This document shows positions 6,876-53,773 of a stretch of 53,773 bases of DNA, piece after piece. The position numbers were made by a program, and so were the translations under genes. This DNA comes from a virus. Every line of letters starts with the position of its first letter. Position 1 is the stretch's first letter. Where the stretch lies: positions 1 through 53,773 of IMG/VR virus record IMGVR_UViG_3300020596_000028; one strand, given 5' to 3'. The notes under the pieces were generated by a model. That model was not told where the DNA came from. It made no database searches and saw nothing but the letters and a program-made list of their open reading frames with translations.

Positions 6876-7259
6876 TTATTTCTTTTCAGTCTCGTTTAAA
6901 GCTTGATTTGAAGAGTAAAAGTCATTCAAAACTCCATCGATTGTTCTTTCACCTTCGATGAGTTTCGCTAAAGCTTGCTGAGCTTGCTTGACGGCTTCAA
7001 CGACTGAGTCCCGAAAGAGTTTAGGATCTACTGGAATCGCAAACTCATTATGAGTTGGAGTATTAGTATACGCCATCACGTATCGCTGCCAGCACATATG
7101 CGGACGAACTCCAGCAGATCTCACGATCCCTTTGTCGTCTACTTGCATTTGTTCCATGTACCTAACGACTTGAATTGCAGCTCCACTGTAATTATCTTTC
7201 GCAAGTACGATGGCGAATGAATCTTTTTTATAAAGGAAAATGTTATTTGGAATTTTCAT
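6876..7259 (-). CDS. Hypothetical protein (127 aa)
   Basis: The protein looks like a small alpha/beta domain: an N-terminal strand-rich part (IFLYKKDSFAIVLAK) and a C-terminal helix rich in Gln and Ala (VVEAVKQAQQALAKLIEGER). It lies in an operon directly before terL and overlaps the sigma-like gene by 4 bases. No family is recognised. Confidence 0.65.
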   Translation of the reverse strand: MKIPNNIFLYKKDSFAIVLAKDNYSGAAIQVVRYMEQMQVDDKGIVRSAGVRPHMCWQRYVMAYTNTPTHNEFAIPVDPKLFRDSVVEAVKQAQQALAKLIEGERTIDGVLNDFYSSNQALNETEKK

Positions 7260-7873
7260 ACCGTATCCTCTTCGTCTACAAGTTCTTGAATATTGAGTTT
7301 GATTTTAAGTTTCACTGATTTCAAAACGCTGATGACTACGTGGCGTTTGATTCCTAACTTTTCAACCATCGTGTTAATACTCACACCTTCAACTAAGTGA
7401 AGAGCGAGCACTTCTTTTTCTAGCTGATTGAGCTGATCTAAAACTCGAGTCACTGAACTAGAATAGGAGAGCCAATCATCCAAGCCTTCAACAAAAATTT
7501 CCTTGTCTTCATAAACTTCTTCAACGCACAAGAGTTTTGTTCTAGCGTTGCGTTTAGATCTGCATTTTTTTGATAAACTTTTAAAGTGATTCTCAATGAC
7601 TGCTGAAAGATAGGTCGTGAGCTTGACGTTTTGACTTGTGTCAAACGTCGCTAGTCCCTTCCACATGGCGATCCTAACTTGCTGTTCAAGATCGTCATAA
7701 GCCCAACCAAACGTCTCCTGAGCTCTGTACTGGTATTTAGAACACCAGCTTTTCACGACATATCTCATGTCGCTTTTCATCAGCACTTCAATTTGCGAAC
7801 TAATGTTCCGACGCTGCTCAGGAGACATCTCGTTTAAGATCGTTCTGATTTTTCCAGGGGCGTTATTTTTCAT
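7256..7873 (-). CDS. Sigma-70-like RNA polymerase factor (first copy)
   Basis: The 205-residue protein resembles small group-4 or phage sigma factors. Region 2 is visible as YDDLEQQVRIAMWKGLATFD followed by KLTTYLSAVIENHFKSLSKK (about 58-103). Region 4 is LNQLEKEVLALHLVEGVSIN and the HTH MVEKLGIKRHVVISVLKS (about 147-190). Such factors redirect host polymerase to phage promoters, often late ones. A second sigma-like protein is encoded at 12359-13033. The gene overlaps both neighbours by 4-11 bases. Confidence 0.8.
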   Translation of the reverse strand: MKNNAPGKIRTILNEMSPEQRRNISSQIEVLMKSDMRYVVKSWCSKYQYRAQETFGWAYDDLEQQVRIAMWKGLATFDTSQNVKLTTYLSAVIENHFKSLSKKCRSKRNARTKLLCVEEVYEDKEIFVEGLDDWLSYSSSVTRVLDQLNQLEKEVLALHLVEGVSINTMVEKLGIKRHVVISVLKSVKLKIKLNIQELVDEEDTV

Positions 7874-45468: not shown

Positions 45469-48294
45469 CTATTCCTTAGCGTCTTGCTCAACCTCTTCAG
45501 CTGCGTCTGCGATGTCTGCAGCAGCTTCAGAGAAGCTATCCACCACTGAGTCTTCGTCCTCAGGAAGGAAACTCATCCAAGCGCATCGGCAATTAATCTT
45601 TTGTCCAGCCTCAGCTCTAGGTTCACGAGGAAACATGAGACCGTTACTAAATGGTTCATCGACGTCTACGACTTCCATGTTGAGCTTGTGGTCATCTCTC
45701 ACTCGATCGTCTTGAGCATCGATCCAGATTTTTTTGAGCTCTTTAGCTTCTTTTGGGAACTCTTTTTTGAAGTCCTCGTCCTTCTTGCTTTGCCCAAGGG
45801 ACACGGCAGACAATGTTTCAGTTCTAACAATCGTTTGAACTCGAGCCGCACTTTGCGTGCCTTCAAAGTAATCCCGTAAATCAGCACTGATTTCTGCAAT
45901 CGGTTTATTCTCGTCAAGTGCGTCTGCGATCATTTGACTGACGTCAGCCTTCGTTGTTTCAGTTACATACGTGATGTTGTCGGCACCAAACTCAAGTGAC
46001 ATCTGAGCTGCAATTTCGTTTGGAAGGTTCAGTTCCCTCACGCCAAAGAGCTGCTGATCGTAACCATGCTTCATGGCGTTTTCGATCGCTTTACTGGGTT
46101 TCTTTTTTTCCTGCTTGATGAAGTCCTTTAAGATACCTTCATCAACAACATCGTCTGAATCCTTAGCCTTCATATGAAGACCAAACTGACGAACCTTTTT
46201 CTCCCAGCCCTTCATGAACACTTGGCCCATGCGCTTAAACAGGTCCTTCACTTCGTCTTCACGTTCACGCATCAGGTCCACAATCTGACCTTCAGTCAAA
46301 GCTTTGAGTGCGGTCTGAACTTGCTCAAGAGAAAGTTTGTTGACCTTTAAACGGTCTAGAGCTTGTTCGTTGGCAGCAAACTGAATCACATTTTCAGCTG
46401 CTGCTTCAGACTCCCCCAACTTCCCAGCGTCCTCCGTCGGATCATTAATCAGCTGTTGAGTCGGTACATGGCCTTCTAGGGTAGCTCTTTCAATTGCCAT
46501 TCGGATCGCATCGGCCATCGAGTGACCTTCACCGAGAGCAACCTCAACGAGTTGAGCTACACGTTGCTCAAATGTAATGCCGTCCGTTTCAACAATCGTT
46601 GAACCAATGTTCGCCATATCGGGTTGAGCATTAGGCTCAGAGTTCTTTCCTTCTTCCACTGGAGTTTCAACTACTGGAGGATGAGGAGGGAGTGGAGGAA
46701 AACCCACCATCGAACGCGCCACGTTTCGATCCATCGCGAACATCGAAACGAGAACTTCGACTGCTGCACCCGGCGTGAGCTTGTCGGTTTGAACTCGTCT
46801 AATGACGTTCATGACTGCGGTGACGGCCGGGCCTTCGACAGGCATTCCAGCAGGCATCGCGACTGGGTTTCCGTTTTGATCTTTCGCCTCACCCGCTTCA
46901 GCTCCTGCGAAAATAGGAGATGGGTTTTTAGCTTGCTCAAGCACTGGAGAAACATCGCCGCCTTTGAGAGGTGCTTTTTTCCAAATGTCCTGACGGACTT
47001 CATTCACCGTGCATCCGGTGTCGAGCATGGATTTAGCGACAAGCCCTTTGGATTCAACGTTCTCTCTTAGAGCTTCCACGTTGCTGAAGTCATATCGAAT
47101 GCGAAGGCTGCGTTCAGGCTTGAGAAGTTTCTTATGCTTGTTGAGAGACTCTTCAATCTTTTTAGCAATCGGCTTTAAGCAGTCTTCGTAGTAACCCTTG
47201 TGCTGAACCAAAGCGTTAGAATAAGAAGCGTCTTCAAGGAGACCTGCTTTGACTGGCGGAACTTTGTAGGCTGAAAAGATCGGCTCACGATTCGCTTTCG
47301 TGAATTCGATCATGGAACTTTCCAGCATGTTCGATTCAATCGTGTCGTACTCCATGCCTTCAGGAAGAATGAGCGTCTTATGATGGTTCAATTTCCCGGT
47401 ATAATCCTGGTCGAAACTACGTTGCAACCGAGTCAGTTGATCCTTCGTCAGCTTGCGAGTCGTCTTAATGACACCGCCTAGACGTGCTCCTTGCTTATAG
47501 AATCGGATCATGTGCTCATGCGTATGGCGATCAAGCAGGACGTTTTTCATCACCGGAACAATCGGAGCTAATCCAATGAACGGATCAACGGGATTAGGCA
47601 TCTTGATATGAATGATTTCGTCTTCTTCAAATCGGAACGTGCCTTGAGGACAACGGTAAATGTAGCCGCCGATATGACTGCCTTGAGTTCCAGCAATGGG
47701 TTCAATCATGGCAGAGTTGATTCGGTACATTTCTAAAACAGCTTTTCGAGTTTCATCTAAGCGAGTGTGGATGTACCCGTTCCCAGTGGATAAGAGATCC
47801 ACAATCAGAAGCTCGTAAAACTCTGAAGCTGTATGGGTATCGCTCGGGTACTTAAATAAGTACGCTTCAGGTTCACCGCTTGCGTCTTCCCAAGTGTCTT
47901 TTTTAATAGTACGAGAGTTGGGGTCTTCTGGATTGAGTCGTTCGGTGACAGTGATTTTCTTTTCAAGCAAGAGAGGCAAAGCACAAAGTGATTGCGCAAT
48001 CGTGGACACGCAAACGTAGAACCAACCTTCAGTGACGAACAATCGATGAAGGGTAGCGAGGTCGATGTCCTGCTGGATCGATCCAAAGTAATTTAAATTG
48101 TTTCCGCCACTAAAAGAATCCAGAGACTTCTCATCTCCAGCGCCATAGGCCTGAATTGCATAGTTCAAATCGTCTTCAGTGGATACGTCATGAAGCTGTT
48201 GCTTGACGGTATTTAATTCTTCTTCAAGTCTTTGAAGAGCTTGGGCTTGTTGAGGGTTTGCTTTCCTGGTTAAAAGGTTTTCTAGAATGCTCAC
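45469..48294 (-). CDS. Portal protein fused to a MuF/SPP1 gp7-like minor head domain (941 aa)
   Basis: Residues about 60-450 match HK97-type portals (LHRLFVTEGWFYVCVSTIAQ, TGNGYIHTR, FKVPPVKAG-like FSAYKVPPVKAGLL, YYEDCLKPIAKKIEE). A Pro/Glu-rich linker follows. The C-terminal 240 residues carry the MuF pattern: ARVQTIVRTETLSAVSLGQS, WIDAQDDRVRDDHK, then GQKINCRCAW. Normally these are two proteins; no internal start or stop separates them here. The gene overlaps its upstream neighbour by 4 bases. The portal dodecamer is the DNA gate, and MuF proteins enter the capsid. Confidence 0.9.
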   Translation of the reverse strand: MSILENLLTRKANPQQAQALQRLEEELNTVKQQLHDVSTEDDLNYAIQAYGAGDEKSLDSFSGGNNLNYFGSIQQDIDLATLHRLFVTEGWFYVCVSTIAQSLCALPLLLEKKITVTERLNPEDPNSRTIKKDTWEDASGEPEAYLFKYPSDTHTASEFYELLIVDLLSTGNGYIHTRLDETRKAVLEMYRINSAMIEPIAGTQGSHIGGYIYRCPQGTFRFEEDEIIHIKMPNPVDPFIGLAPIVPVMKNVLLDRHTHEHMIRFYKQGARLGGVIKTTRKLTKDQLTRLQRSFDQDYTGKLNHHKTLILPEGMEYDTIESNMLESSMIEFTKANREPIFSAYKVPPVKAGLLEDASYSNALVQHKGYYEDCLKPIAKKIEESLNKHKKLLKPERSLRIRYDFSNVEALRENVESKGLVAKSMLDTGCTVNEVRQDIWKKAPLKGGDVSPVLEQAKNPSPIFAGAEAGEAKDQNGNPVAMPAGMPVEGPAVTAVMNVIRRVQTDKLTPGAAVEVLVSMFAMDRNVARSMVGFPPLPPHPPVVETPVEEGKNSEPNAQPDMANIGSTIVETDGITFEQRVAQLVEVALGEGHSMADAIRMAIERATLEGHVPTQQLINDPTEDAGKLGESEAAAENVIQFAANEQALDRLKVNKLSLEQVQTALKALTEGQIVDLMREREDEVKDLFKRMGQVFMKGWEKKVRQFGLHMKAKDSDDVVDEGILKDFIKQEKKKPSKAIENAMKHGYDQQLFGVRELNLPNEIAAQMSLEFGADNITYVTETTKADVSQMIADALDENKPIAEISADLRDYFEGTQSAARVQTIVRTETLSAVSLGQSKKDEDFKKEFPKEAKELKKIWIDAQDDRVRDDHKLNMEVVDVDEPFSNGLMFPREPRAEAGQKINCRCAWMSFLPEDEDSVVDSFSEAAADIADAAEEVEQDAKE

Positions 48295-50609: not shown

Positions 50610-51407
50610 TCAGTGTCTCGGCATCTGAAACGTGAAGGGCTTGTCTTCTACATACTTAGAAAGTGGATGCTCTGAGTTATTAAAGTACTTGGCTCTTAGT
50701 TCTTTAACACCCCCAGGCCAGTGCTTCTTGAATCGTCGCCACCAAACTTGTGCGGTGAGCTTCGTCATCCAGTTGTAGTTAGATCCGTAGTACAGGCAGA
50801 GGTAACTCAAGCGCCAGGAGTCTTGGTCTTGGGGTTTAAATAAGCCGCTTGTTGCGATGACCAAACACCAATAGATCAGTCTCCACGTAGAGAGCTTCTC
50901 TTGTGCCGCCATTTGCAATCCGCCAATGAGCTGAGGTTGGCGTCCCATCCAGCTGTTCTTACTCGCTGTGCCCGGCGTGACGTTGTTATAATTGTATTTG
51001 AGTTCACCATCTCCAACGAGAACGAGCAGAAGCATTTTAACCATGAGTGGAAGATTGGAGTCATGGATCATGTCGCTTGCTTTAGCGGGAATACTTCTTC
51101 CGTAGAACAAAACGCTTCTCGCGATTGCAGGATCAATCAGAGCTGAGGCACAAGCAATGCCCATGTAATCGTCTGGAGCTTGTTGGTCAGGGTGATCGGG
51201 ATGTCGATTGAAAAGCCCAATCCGTTTTTCGCAGCTCAAGATCACATCTCTAAAATGGTCCTCGTCTGACTTCGTGAGCTCTCCGCGTTGGTGAAGAAGG
51301 GCTAGGTACTCAGCCGTATAGAGTAATCCGTTGCCGCTTGGCTTTCCGTCTGGAGTAATTAAACCATACTGATCCGTAAATGCCTTAATGTCGATCCTGA
51401 TATCCAT
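50610..51407 (-). CDS. Hypothetical phage protein, paralogue of 18723-19442 (265 aa)
   Basis: The protein has F-x-D-x-x-GLITPDG, LLYTAEYLALLHQRGELTKS, C-x-K-x-x-G-x-x-N-x-H-x-D and DDYMGIACASAL. A W-x-G-x-x-P central motif and a C-terminal WPGGVK followed by HPLSKYV complete the pattern. The second copy, at 18723-19442, is in the tail region. GGAG six bases upstream supports the start. It is probably the better-conserved member. The function of the family is unknown to me. Confidence 0.7.
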   Translation of the reverse strand: MDIRIDIKAFTDQYGLITPDGKPSGNGLLYTAEYLALLHQRGELTKSDEDHFRDVILSCEKRIGLFNRHPDHPDQQAPDDYMGIACASALIDPAIARSVLFYGRSIPAKASDMIHDSNLPLMVKMLLLVLVGDGELKYNYNNVTPGTASKNSWMGRQPQLIGGLQMAAQEKLSTWRLIYWCLVIATSGLFKPQDQDSWRLSYLCLYYGSNYNWMTKLTAQVWWRRFKKHWPGGVKELRAKYFNNSEHPLSKYVEDKPFTFQMPRH

Positions 51408-51546: not shown

Positions 51547-51777
51547 TTATTCGAAGTCATTGGGATCGAGCGGATACTTTTGAACGATCGCACTATTGGC
51601 ACTCATCATGACAAATGAAAGCTGAGTGAAAGCGGTCTGCCGTTCATTCACATCAGGGCAGAGGAAATCAATCAACTCAGCTAGCTCTCTCACCTTCTTA
51701 CGGATCATGGTCATGTGAGCAATGCCTTGGGCATCGGGCTTATGGAAACCAAAACGGCTTTTAATTTCGTCTCTCAT
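51547..51777 (-). CDS. Acb2/Tad1-like cyclic-nucleotide sponge (anti-CBASS/anti-Thoeris candidate)
   Basis: The 76-residue protein matches the Acb2/Tad1 hairpin pattern as I know it: RFGFHKP at 8-14, IRKKVRELAELIDFLCPD (25-42), ER at 45-46, then a second helix with VMMSANSAI (56-64). These short helical proteins oligomerise and sequester cyclic nucleotide signals, blocking CBASS and, in some members, Thoeris defence. F11 and the basic residues 26-28 fall where the family has its ligand-contacting aromatic and basic residues. The call is by eye, not by search. Confidence 0.8.
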   Translation of the reverse strand: MRDEIKSRFGFHKPDAQGIAHMTMIRKKVRELAELIDFLCPDVNERQTAFTQLSFVMMSANSAIVQKYPLDPNDFE

Positions 51778-52028: not shown

Positions 52029-52069
52029 CAAAAAAACCCGACACTCACCATGAGCGCCGGGCTGTTTTT
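52029..52069. terminator. Bidirectional Rho-independent terminator
   Basis: CCCGACACTCA (52037-52047) and TGAGCGCCGGG (52051-52061) pair with two G-T wobbles. On the minus strand seven T residues follow; on the plus strand CTGTTTTT follows. It isolates the repeat-rich right end from the Acb2-like gene. Confidence 0.85.
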
Positions 52070-52125: not shown

Positions 52126-52404
52126 TCAATCTAAAATTGAGCAGGCTGAACGTTTTGGTGGGATCGCACTTATAATAAGCAACGAGTTTATCTGCATCAG
52201 GTAGTCTCTGATTTCTTCCCGCAGCGCCATTTTTATATCCCTCTCACCCGCCTTACTTGATTCATAAAACCAATTCGCCGGGCGTGATTTGCCTGTTAAG
52301 AACTCCTGCTCCTGCTCCTGCTCCAACTCCAACTCCCACTCCCACTCCCACTCCAACTCCCACTTCCACTTCCACCCCAACTCCCACTCCCACTCCCACT
52401 CCAA
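52126..52404 (-). pseudogene. Degenerate frame after the hexamer tract
   Basis: The frame begins inside the hexamer tract (alternating Glu with Trp, Leu, Gln or Lys), passes EFLTGKS, and ends in about 50 ordinary residues. It is in the same frame as the gene at 52474-52716, separated by four in-frame stop codons within the tract. This suggests a gene extended and broken by repeat expansion. An internal ATG at 52230 with GAGAGGG upstream could make a 34-residue peptide. A different frame over 52120-52200 also looks protein-like (DADKLVAYYKCDPTKTFSLL), so a frameshift is possible. Confidence 0.35.
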
Positions 52405-52512
52405 CTCCTACTTAAGCTCCCACTCCAACTCCTACTCCAACTTCTAGTTCTGCTCCCTCTCCCACTCCCGCTCTCACTCCTGCTCCAACTCCCGCTCCCA
52501 TTCCCCAGAAGG
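52303..52512 (-). repeat. Hexanucleotide tract, degenerate GAGNNG repeats
   Basis: About 210 bases consist of degenerate hexamers; on the plus strand they read CTCCNA or CTCCNG, mostly CTCCCA, CTCCAA and CTCCTG. In one minus-strand frame they encode alternating Glu with Trp, Leu, Gln or Arg; in another, Gly-Ser. Several in-frame TAG and one TGA codon interrupt the Glu frame. Related short tracts are at 52569-52610 and 53720-53773. Confidence 0.8.
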
Positions 52513-52716
52513 CATGCCTGGTTCATTTTTGCTCCATAGGCAGTATGATTTGCCTGTTAAGAATTCCAACTCCTGCTCCCACTCAAGCTCCCGCTCCCGC
52601 TGCCACTTGGCCCCGGCGAGGAATATCTCCTCAACTTCAGACCACGACTTTGCGTACTCGAATTTACCATATGATTCCTGTGAGTACTCTTTCGCTCTCT
52701 TTTCACCTTCGGTCAT
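52474..52716 (-). CDS. Small phage protein with C-terminal hexamer-coded extension (80 aa)
   Basis: The start overlaps the upstream gene by 4 bases (ATGA) and has GGAGC upstream. The first 45 residues (MTEGEKRAKEYSQESYGKFE, then VEEIFLAGAKWQRERE) resemble small phage proteins that end near an AGA-x-W motif. From there the sequence turns into Glu-X dipeptides, then FLTGKSYCLWSKNEPG coded by the 80-bp direct repeat, and Glu-X again until a TGA. The tail is probably a by-product of repeat expansion. Confidence 0.5.
   Translation of the reverse strand: MTEGEKRAKEYSQESYGKFEYAKSWSEVEEIFLAGAKWQRERELEWEQELEFLTGKSYCLWSKNEPGMPSGEWERELEQE
52501..52580. repeat. 80-bp direct repeat, copy 1
   Basis: Bases 52501-52568 are identical to 53652-53719, then one mismatch, then 11 identical bases to 52580. 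An 18-base core of the repeat (TGATTTGCCTGTTAAGAA) also occurs at 52285-52302. The two long copies flank the gene at 52713-53639. Each core borders a hexamer tract. Confidence 0.9.
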
Positions 52717-53639
52717 GTCTCGCTCCGGTTCTTCACTGAGCGAGCCATCTCGATGAGTAGGTCTCGGAACTCTTCTGGCGTTAAGAGCCTCTGGCGATGG
52801 GAGAGCCTCTGGCGAATACCTGTCCCGATTGCTCGTCGCCTCTCCTCTGCCGAATGGTATCCAAGGTCCAACCGCATCTTATTCTTCGCTGGCCCCCAGA
52901 TGAGCTCTGGGTATTCAATCCCCACCGCATAGAGCCAGGTCATCTTTCGAGCTGGATGACCGTAGTGACCCTGAGAAACACAGCATGAGCGCCCATCGAA
53001 GATGTCGGGCTCCGACCAGCCGCCCTTCCATGCCGGAAGGGGAAGCCCAAACTTCTTGAATGCATGTGACGCCTCCGGGTGTTCAAGCACTCCGCCGTAA
53101 GTCCGAACTGACTTCAGCGCTGATTCAAAGCAGCCATTATCGTCACCAAGTACTCGCCTCACTACCGCTGAAGGACCTCCAGACCAGTACCTGCCCCACC
53201 TCTGGCAGGGAGAGTGCGCGACAACCGGGTGTGGACCGGCGTACTTGCGAGCGTCCCTTTCTTCCGGCCAGGCGTCCACGTTCGGCAGGTTAGAGTAAGG
53301 TCCGTCTTTGACAACGAACAATGCGGCTATCACGTCTCCCTCGGTGCCGACGTCCTTTGTGGCTTGTTGTAAATTCCCTTTGCCTCGAAGCTCTTCCATC
53401 AGCGTGTACCAAGTATTACTTAGCTTATCCTGCATCGATTCGACCGAGACCAGCCCCCTGTGCGCAATTATTCTTGGGTCTAAGTTGAGATGGTTAAACT
53501 GGTCCACCCTTTCTTTTGTCGGGTGATCATAGTTTTTGTGCCAGTTCTCATCAGCATCAAAAACAGAGATTACTTTTTTGACTTCAACGAGTAAATCCTC
53601 GCATTCCCTGACAACCTTAAGAATTTCTACTGTAGTCAT
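52713..53639 (-). CDS. Conserved phage protein of unknown function with AHSPCQRW and LEHPE motifs (308 aa)
   Basis: The ATG at 53639 is chosen for its AAAGGAG seven bases upstream; a nine-codon longer form would start within the direct repeat. Residues from about 120 show a pattern I know from many uncharacterised phage proteins: GPYSNLPNVDAWPEERDAR, KYAGPHPVVAHSPCQRWGRY, LGDDNGCFESAL, YGGVLEHPEASHAF, a Cys pair CCVSQGHYGH and RKMTWLYAVG, ending LTPEEFRDLLIEMAR. The SPCQ stretch recalls the PCQ loop of cytosine methyltransferases, but no SAM-binding motif is clear. Direct repeats flank it, so it may be mobile. Confidence 0.7.
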   Translation of the reverse strand: MTTVEILKVVRECEDLLVEVKKVISVFDADENWHKNYDHPTKERVDQFNHLNLDPRIIAHRGLVSVESMQDKLSNTWYTLMEELRGKGNLQQATKDVGTEGDVIAALFVVKDGPYSNLPNVDAWPEERDARKYAGPHPVVAHSPCQRWGRYWSGGPSAVVRRVLGDDNGCFESALKSVRTYGGVLEHPEASHAFKKFGLPLPAWKGGWSEPDIFDGRSCCVSQGHYGHPARKMTWLYAVGIEYPELIWGPAKNKMRLDLGYHSAEERRRAIGTGIRQRLSHRQRLLTPEEFRDLLIEMARSVKNRSET

Positions 53640-53651
53640 TTGCTTTCTCCT

Positions 53652-53731
53652 TTCCCCAGAAGGCATGCCTGGTTCATTTTTGCTCCATAGGCAGTATGAT
53701 TTGCCTGTTAAGAATTCCAGCTCCTGCTCCC
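53652..53731. repeat. 80-bp direct repeat, copy 2
   Basis: This is the second copy of the repeat at 52501-52580, with one difference. It lies directly upstream of the 308-residue gene and contains the start of a longer but less likely form of that gene. The hexamer tract continues from it to the window edge. Confidence 0.9.
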
Positions 53732-53773
53732 GCTCCTAGTCCCGCTCCCGCTCCCGCTCCTAGTCCCACTTCC
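53720..53773 (-). repeat. Hexanucleotide tract at the window edge
   Basis: Degenerate CTCCTG, CTCCCG and CTCCTAGTCCCG units run to the last base. On the minus strand the Glu-X frame is broken by two TAG codons; the Gly-Ala and Gly-Ser frames stay open. A coding region may continue outside the window, but none can be assigned. Confidence 0.7.

Follow-up and report, generated by a model that had tools for sequence, protein, structure and literature searches.

Acb2 proteins are compact homohexamers containing three binding sites for cyclic dinucleotides and two for cyclic trinucleotides, which sequester the signals of CBASS without degrading them and restore phage growth. In the Acb2 of a Pseudomonas phage, Arg 67 is reported to be a contact for cyclic trinucleotides at the three-fold interface, and Lys 26, together with the equivalent Lys 23 of the T4 protein, is presumably a residue of the dinucleotide pocket. 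For T4 Acb2, the mutation Y8A was found to disrupt dinucleotide binding and the mutation F82C to reduce binding (PMC12657218), while a lower affinity was reported for the natural variant T68M (PMC12657230). The layout of the helices in Acb2 has been described (PMC12043709, PMC10419184). In Tad1 proteins, which bind both gcADPR and cyclic nucleotides, the helical hairpin is preceded by an N-terminal β-sheet (PMC12043709).

We have analysed a stretch of viral DNA of 53,773 bases, in the following referred to as the window, which carries, among other phage genes, those for portal, protease, major head protein and terminase, and for which a preliminary description had pointed to an Acb2/Tad1-like protein. 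The respective open reading frame lies exactly where it had been placed, on the minus strand and with an ATG start and a TAA stop (Table 1), and the motifs recognized by eye, ELAELIDFLCPD, NER and MSANSAI, can all be read in its product (MRDEIKSRFGFHKPDAQGIAHMTMIRKKVRELAELIDFLCPDVNERQTAFTQLSFVMMSANSAIVQKYPLDPNDFE), which is encoded in a frame of 78 codons from stop to stop. The profile search that had been proposed as a check returned the Pfam family PF24729 (Acb2/Tad1 hairpin) with an E-value of 8.8e-11 and a score of 42.3 bits, which exceeds the curated cut-off of 27 bits and covers positions 1-58 of the 58 positions of the model. The same family is matched by T4 Vs.4 (Acb2), by the Acb2 of the Pseudomonas phage and by Acb2 homolog 43, and a search against PHROG 1454 (phrog_1454) gave an E-value of 1.1e-15. 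At the top of the list of viral matches we find named Acb2/Tad1 hairpin proteins. Relatives with identities of up to about 41% are distributed over 96 phage records, chiefly of phages of Paenibacillus, Gordonia, Lactococcus, Streptomyces and Microbacterium, whereas closer relatives, with 57-71% identity, are found in three uncultured viral contigs; a literature search for a published assay of any closer relative found none. Within the window, the protein is the sole member of the family. A single-sequence phmmer search of the PDB found nothing relevant, indicating that profiles are needed. With a profile of relatives that includes the protein itself, the first PDB match is 9ptq, 'Acb2 homolog 43' (E 5.3e-7), while Tad1 chains are matched by the same profile over 20 residues with an E-value of 1.5.

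Table 1. Position of the acb2-like gene in the window, of selected residues and predicted helices of its product, and of a hairpin in its vicinity.
Feature	Position	Strand	Details	Basis
acb2-like gene	51547..51777	(-)	76 aa, ATG start, TAA stop	PF24729, phrog_1454
F11	51745..51747	(-)	Equivalent of T4 Acb2 Y8, dinucleotide-pocket aromatic	Column alignment
R26	51700..51702	(-)	Equivalent of T4 K23 and Pseudomonas Acb2 K26, invariant basic residue	Column alignment
N44	51646..51648	(-)	Equivalent of Pseudomonas Acb2 R67, codon AAT	Column counts
T51	51625..51627	(-)	Equivalent of T4 Acb2 T68	Column alignment and hhalign
Predicted long helix 1	51661..51732	(-)	Residues 16-39	AlphaFold2
Predicted long helix 2	51583..51648	(-)	Residues 44-65	AlphaFold2
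Terminator-like hairpin with T tract	52035..52063	(-)	13-pair stem then TTTTTGTTT; upstream of the acb2-like gene	

Since the motifs had been called by eye on a protein of 76 residues, and since the PDB contains many helical hairpins, the resemblance of a short helical open reading frame to this family could have arisen by chance. When compared to a profile of relatives built without the protein itself and the three homologues nearest to it, the protein scores 70.2 bits (E 3.6e-20), against a top score of 7.9 bits in 5,000 shuffles, and no other of the 549 open reading frames with at least 40 aa in the window is among the top matches listed. A comparison at the level of codons with the homologues on the contigs L001, L002 and L003 yields 39, 39 and 44 differences in third positions, against 18-26 in first and 11-22 in second positions (for L001, 18 and 14 at the two other positions). 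This bias towards the third position, found with three separate contigs, is as expected for a conserved coding gene. The gene is thus real and under purifying selection, and a chance match, which we regard as extremely improbable, is refuted by both the shuffle and the codon-position tests.

A monomer model predicted by AlphaFold2 from 52 sequences, with a pLDDT of 94.8, places a short helix at residues 3-9 in front of the two long helices listed in Table 1, in agreement with the layout described for Acb2 (PMC12043709, PMC10419184). The addition of the 52 homologues had increased the pLDDT from 83.5 to 94.8, with the match to the PDB still not being significant. In a Foldseek search of the PDB, ranks 1-5 are all occupied by T4 Vs.4 (7uq2) or Acb2 (8h2x), with probabilities of 0.75-0.94 and weak E-values of 0.46-1.7, and the alignment to Vs.4 by VIA-align has a Z-score of 6.6, which is the same as for unrelated hairpins. 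In light of these weak E-values and the tie in Z-score, the predicted fold is consistent with Acb2 and supportive of the assignment, rather than being an independent proof. The ranking of folds and the match to PF24729 agree with the initial identification at the level of the family. Of the two names that had been offered, Acb2 fits and Tad1 does not, since the frame of 78 codons leaves no space for the N-terminal β-sheet domain of Tad1 and thus points to an Acb2 architecture. Judged by its sequence, the protein is a new and divergent member of the already known Acb2 family, which extends this family to a divergent, uncultured phage lineage without close relative among isolates.

To compare the residues of the ligand pocket, we have aligned the protein with 120 distinct relatives, T4 Acb2, the Acb2 of the Pseudomonas phage and homolog 43. 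Position 11, a Phe in the window protein, is occupied by Tyr in 104 and by Phe in 15 of the 120 relatives, and by Tyr in the proteins of T4 and the Pseudomonas phage. The Arg at position 26 is found in all 120 relatives and is replaced by Lys in both of these reference proteins, whereas the Thr at position 51 is shared by 117 relatives and by both references. The latter correspondence is also found with hhalign, which pairs residues 47-66 of the window protein with residues 64-83 of T4 Acb2 and hence Thr 51 with Thr 68. The three dinucleotide-pocket positions are thus conservative or identical with respect to Tyr 8, Lys 23 and Thr 68 of T4 Acb2, and their conservation across the 120 relatives fits ligand binding. 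The ligand-stacking aromatic residue Phe 82 of T4 Acb2 corresponds to Val 65 in the window protein. Since this position is an Ala in 114 of the 120 relatives and in Pseudomonas Acb2, Phe 82 is a trait of the T4 protein and does not define the family.

The preliminary description had called the sequence divergent and considered that its ligand range may differ, for which we find one concrete basis in Asn 44. This position is occupied by Arg in 118 of the 120 relatives, the exceptions being a Glu in L133 and an Ala in Lactococcus phage CHPC971, and by Asp in T4 Acb2; the close homologue on L001 retains the Arg. As T4 Acb2 is a bona fide member of the family, an Arg is not required for membership. 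The codon of Asn 44 is at least two base changes away from any Arg codon, which excludes a single sequencing error as its cause. We take position 44 to be the equivalent of Arg 67 in Pseudomonas Acb2, and thus of a residue reported to contact trinucleotides. The lack of the near-invariant Arg suggests, as a prediction, that the protein would bind cyclic trinucleotides more weakly. A second departure, the replacement of the usual Trp by Ser 59, is common to the protein and its three closest relatives. It is conceivable, albeit rather doubtful, that the protein is a naturally narrowed Acb2, which has kept the dinucleotide pocket and lost the trinucleotide site via Asn 44, along with the Ser 59 of its small subclade. 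If this were true, it would counter CBASS systems employing dinucleotides but not those of the cA3 type, and it might avoid setting off guard systems that monitor one of these two signal pools. As a natural variant at a near-invariant position, the protein may be useful for separating the roles of the dinucleotide and trinucleotide sites.

As best explanation for the combined observations, we propose that the gene probably encodes an Acb2-family sponge for the cyclic dinucleotides of CBASS, with its hexameric organization, ligand binding and anti-CBASS effect assigned by analogy to the family. After infection, the protein would fold into a short N-terminal helix followed by a long helical hairpin and assemble into a hexamer, which would capture the cyclic dinucleotides produced by CD-NTases of the host and keep them bound in intact form. 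The CBASS effectors would stay inactive and the infected cell would live long enough to make phage.

Alternatively, the protein could be a hairpin of this family that has lost the ability to bind nucleotides and has been recruited for another process such as head assembly or host takeover. In some phages, relatives are indeed encoded among head genes: Microbacterium phage NoodlelyBoi has one between the capsid protease and the major capsid protein, the portal gene of Gordonia phage FlyingTortilla is directly followed by one, and L002 has one flanked by terminase and portal/head genes. In addition, the described changes at positions 44 and 59 concern near-invariant residues. However, the position of the gene varies, since the relative adjoins exonuclease VIII in L001, follows an exonuclease in Lactococcus phage CHPC971 and has a regulator nearby in Paenibacillus phage Pahemo, which argues against a fixed structural role, and the conservation of Phe 11, Arg 26 and Thr 51 equally disfavours a loss of binding. 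We thus consider this scenario very unlikely. A sponge of the same fold with another signal as its main target, for example a cyclic ADP-ribose from Thoeris systems, which Tad1 targets, or an as yet undescribed molecule, would be in line with PF24729 representing the Acb2 as well as the Tad1 hairpin and with the dual binding properties of Tad1 proteins (PMC12043709). This possibility appears very unlikely to us in light of the missing room for the Tad1 β-sheet domain, of the retained positions of the Acb2 dinucleotide pocket and of the PDB search, where the E-value of Tad1 chains contrasts with the value obtained for homolog 43.

In the window, the acb2-like gene heads a leftward block that runs to the portal, protease and major head genes. 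The next gene downstream on the same strand spans 50610-51407, and the open reading frames between the acb2-like gene and the portal region have lengths of 265, 87, 88 and 237 aa. The gene had been placed beside a non-coding terminator region, and a terminator-like hairpin is indeed present but located upstream, where it would terminate the preceding transcription unit instead of following the acb2-like gene. Since the region contains about as many terminator-like sites as shuffled sequences do on average, the assignment relies on how strong this one stem is. Scans of the window for tRNAs and Rfam families were empty, hence the upstream non-coding stretch matches no described RNA family. The view that the surroundings are typical of an anti-defence locus is not supported, since none of the neighbours tested has a match among the known families of defence or anti-defence proteins.

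Several other features of the window are worth recording. In the portal protein at 45469-48294 (-), with a length of 941 aa, the first half is matched by portal models and the last part by models for head morphogenesis, and the protein thus appears to be a fusion of a portal and a MuF-like head protein. A 205-aa open reading frame at 7256-7873 (-) shows a weak match to sigma factors of phage RNA polymerase (best E 6.7e-7), and the phage may accordingly rely on a promoter type of its own. A repeat of about 110 nt is present in three copies (52237, 52498 and 53649), the last two being 92% alike, and in the regions 52237-52607 and 53649-53773 it is associated with imperfect hexamer arrays (CTCCCA or similar), with the end of the contig falling inside such an array. 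A search of other viral contigs for a 25-base core of this repeat found no identical copy. The listed start of a 317-aa open reading frame at 52713-53666 (-) lies within the repeated element; its product matches phrog_12600, a family of unknown function (E 1.5e-58), and has relatives in Pseudomonas and Caulobacter phages with up to 50% identity. With respect to the host, a scan of the genomes of 84,980 species of bacteria and archaea for close relatives found none and thus pointed to no host, and searches with portal, capsid and terminase returned only distant matches (about 23-30% identity) that are spread over phages of many hosts and thus do not point to any of them.

Among the known systems, T4 Acb2 (Vs.4, PDB 7UQ2) is the best structural match and resembles the window protein in its full-length match to PF24729, its short N-terminal segment followed by two long helices and the correspondence of Tyr 8, Lys 23 and Thr 68 to Phe 11, Arg 26 and Thr 51. 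It differs by an identity of only about 21%, a longer inter-helix stretch, and the residues Phe 82 and Asp in place of Val 65 and Asn 44. Similarly, the Acb2 of the Pseudomonas phage (p26, PDB 8H2J, 8H2X, 8IXZ) shares PF24729, the helix layout and, with Tyr 11, Lys 26 and Thr 74, the counterparts of the same three residues, whereas its identity amounts to about 19%, its inter-helix region is longer and Arg 67 takes the place of Asn 44. Acb2 homolog 43 (PDB 9PTQ), for which a literature search found no publication, is the best sequence match in the PDB and a short form without long inter-helix insertion that aligns without gaps, but it is only about 26% identical and differs at positions 44 (Arg) and 11 (Thr). 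PHROG 1454 and the cluster of Paenibacillus phage proteins (such as Pahemo_73) align over their full length without large gaps at 35-41% identity, with the motifs S-R-E-K and M-W-A replacing V-N-E-R and M-S-A of the window protein. Several GenBank records label the Paenibacillus phage relatives as phosphomannomutase, which is probably a misannotation that has spread; with many public homologues still carrying this name or that of a hypothetical protein, their annotation could be improved widely. Finally, the hairpin represented by PF24729 is also found in Tad1, which is described as hexameric sponge (PMC12043709), but there it follows an N-terminal antiparallel β-sheet domain that is absent in the window protein.
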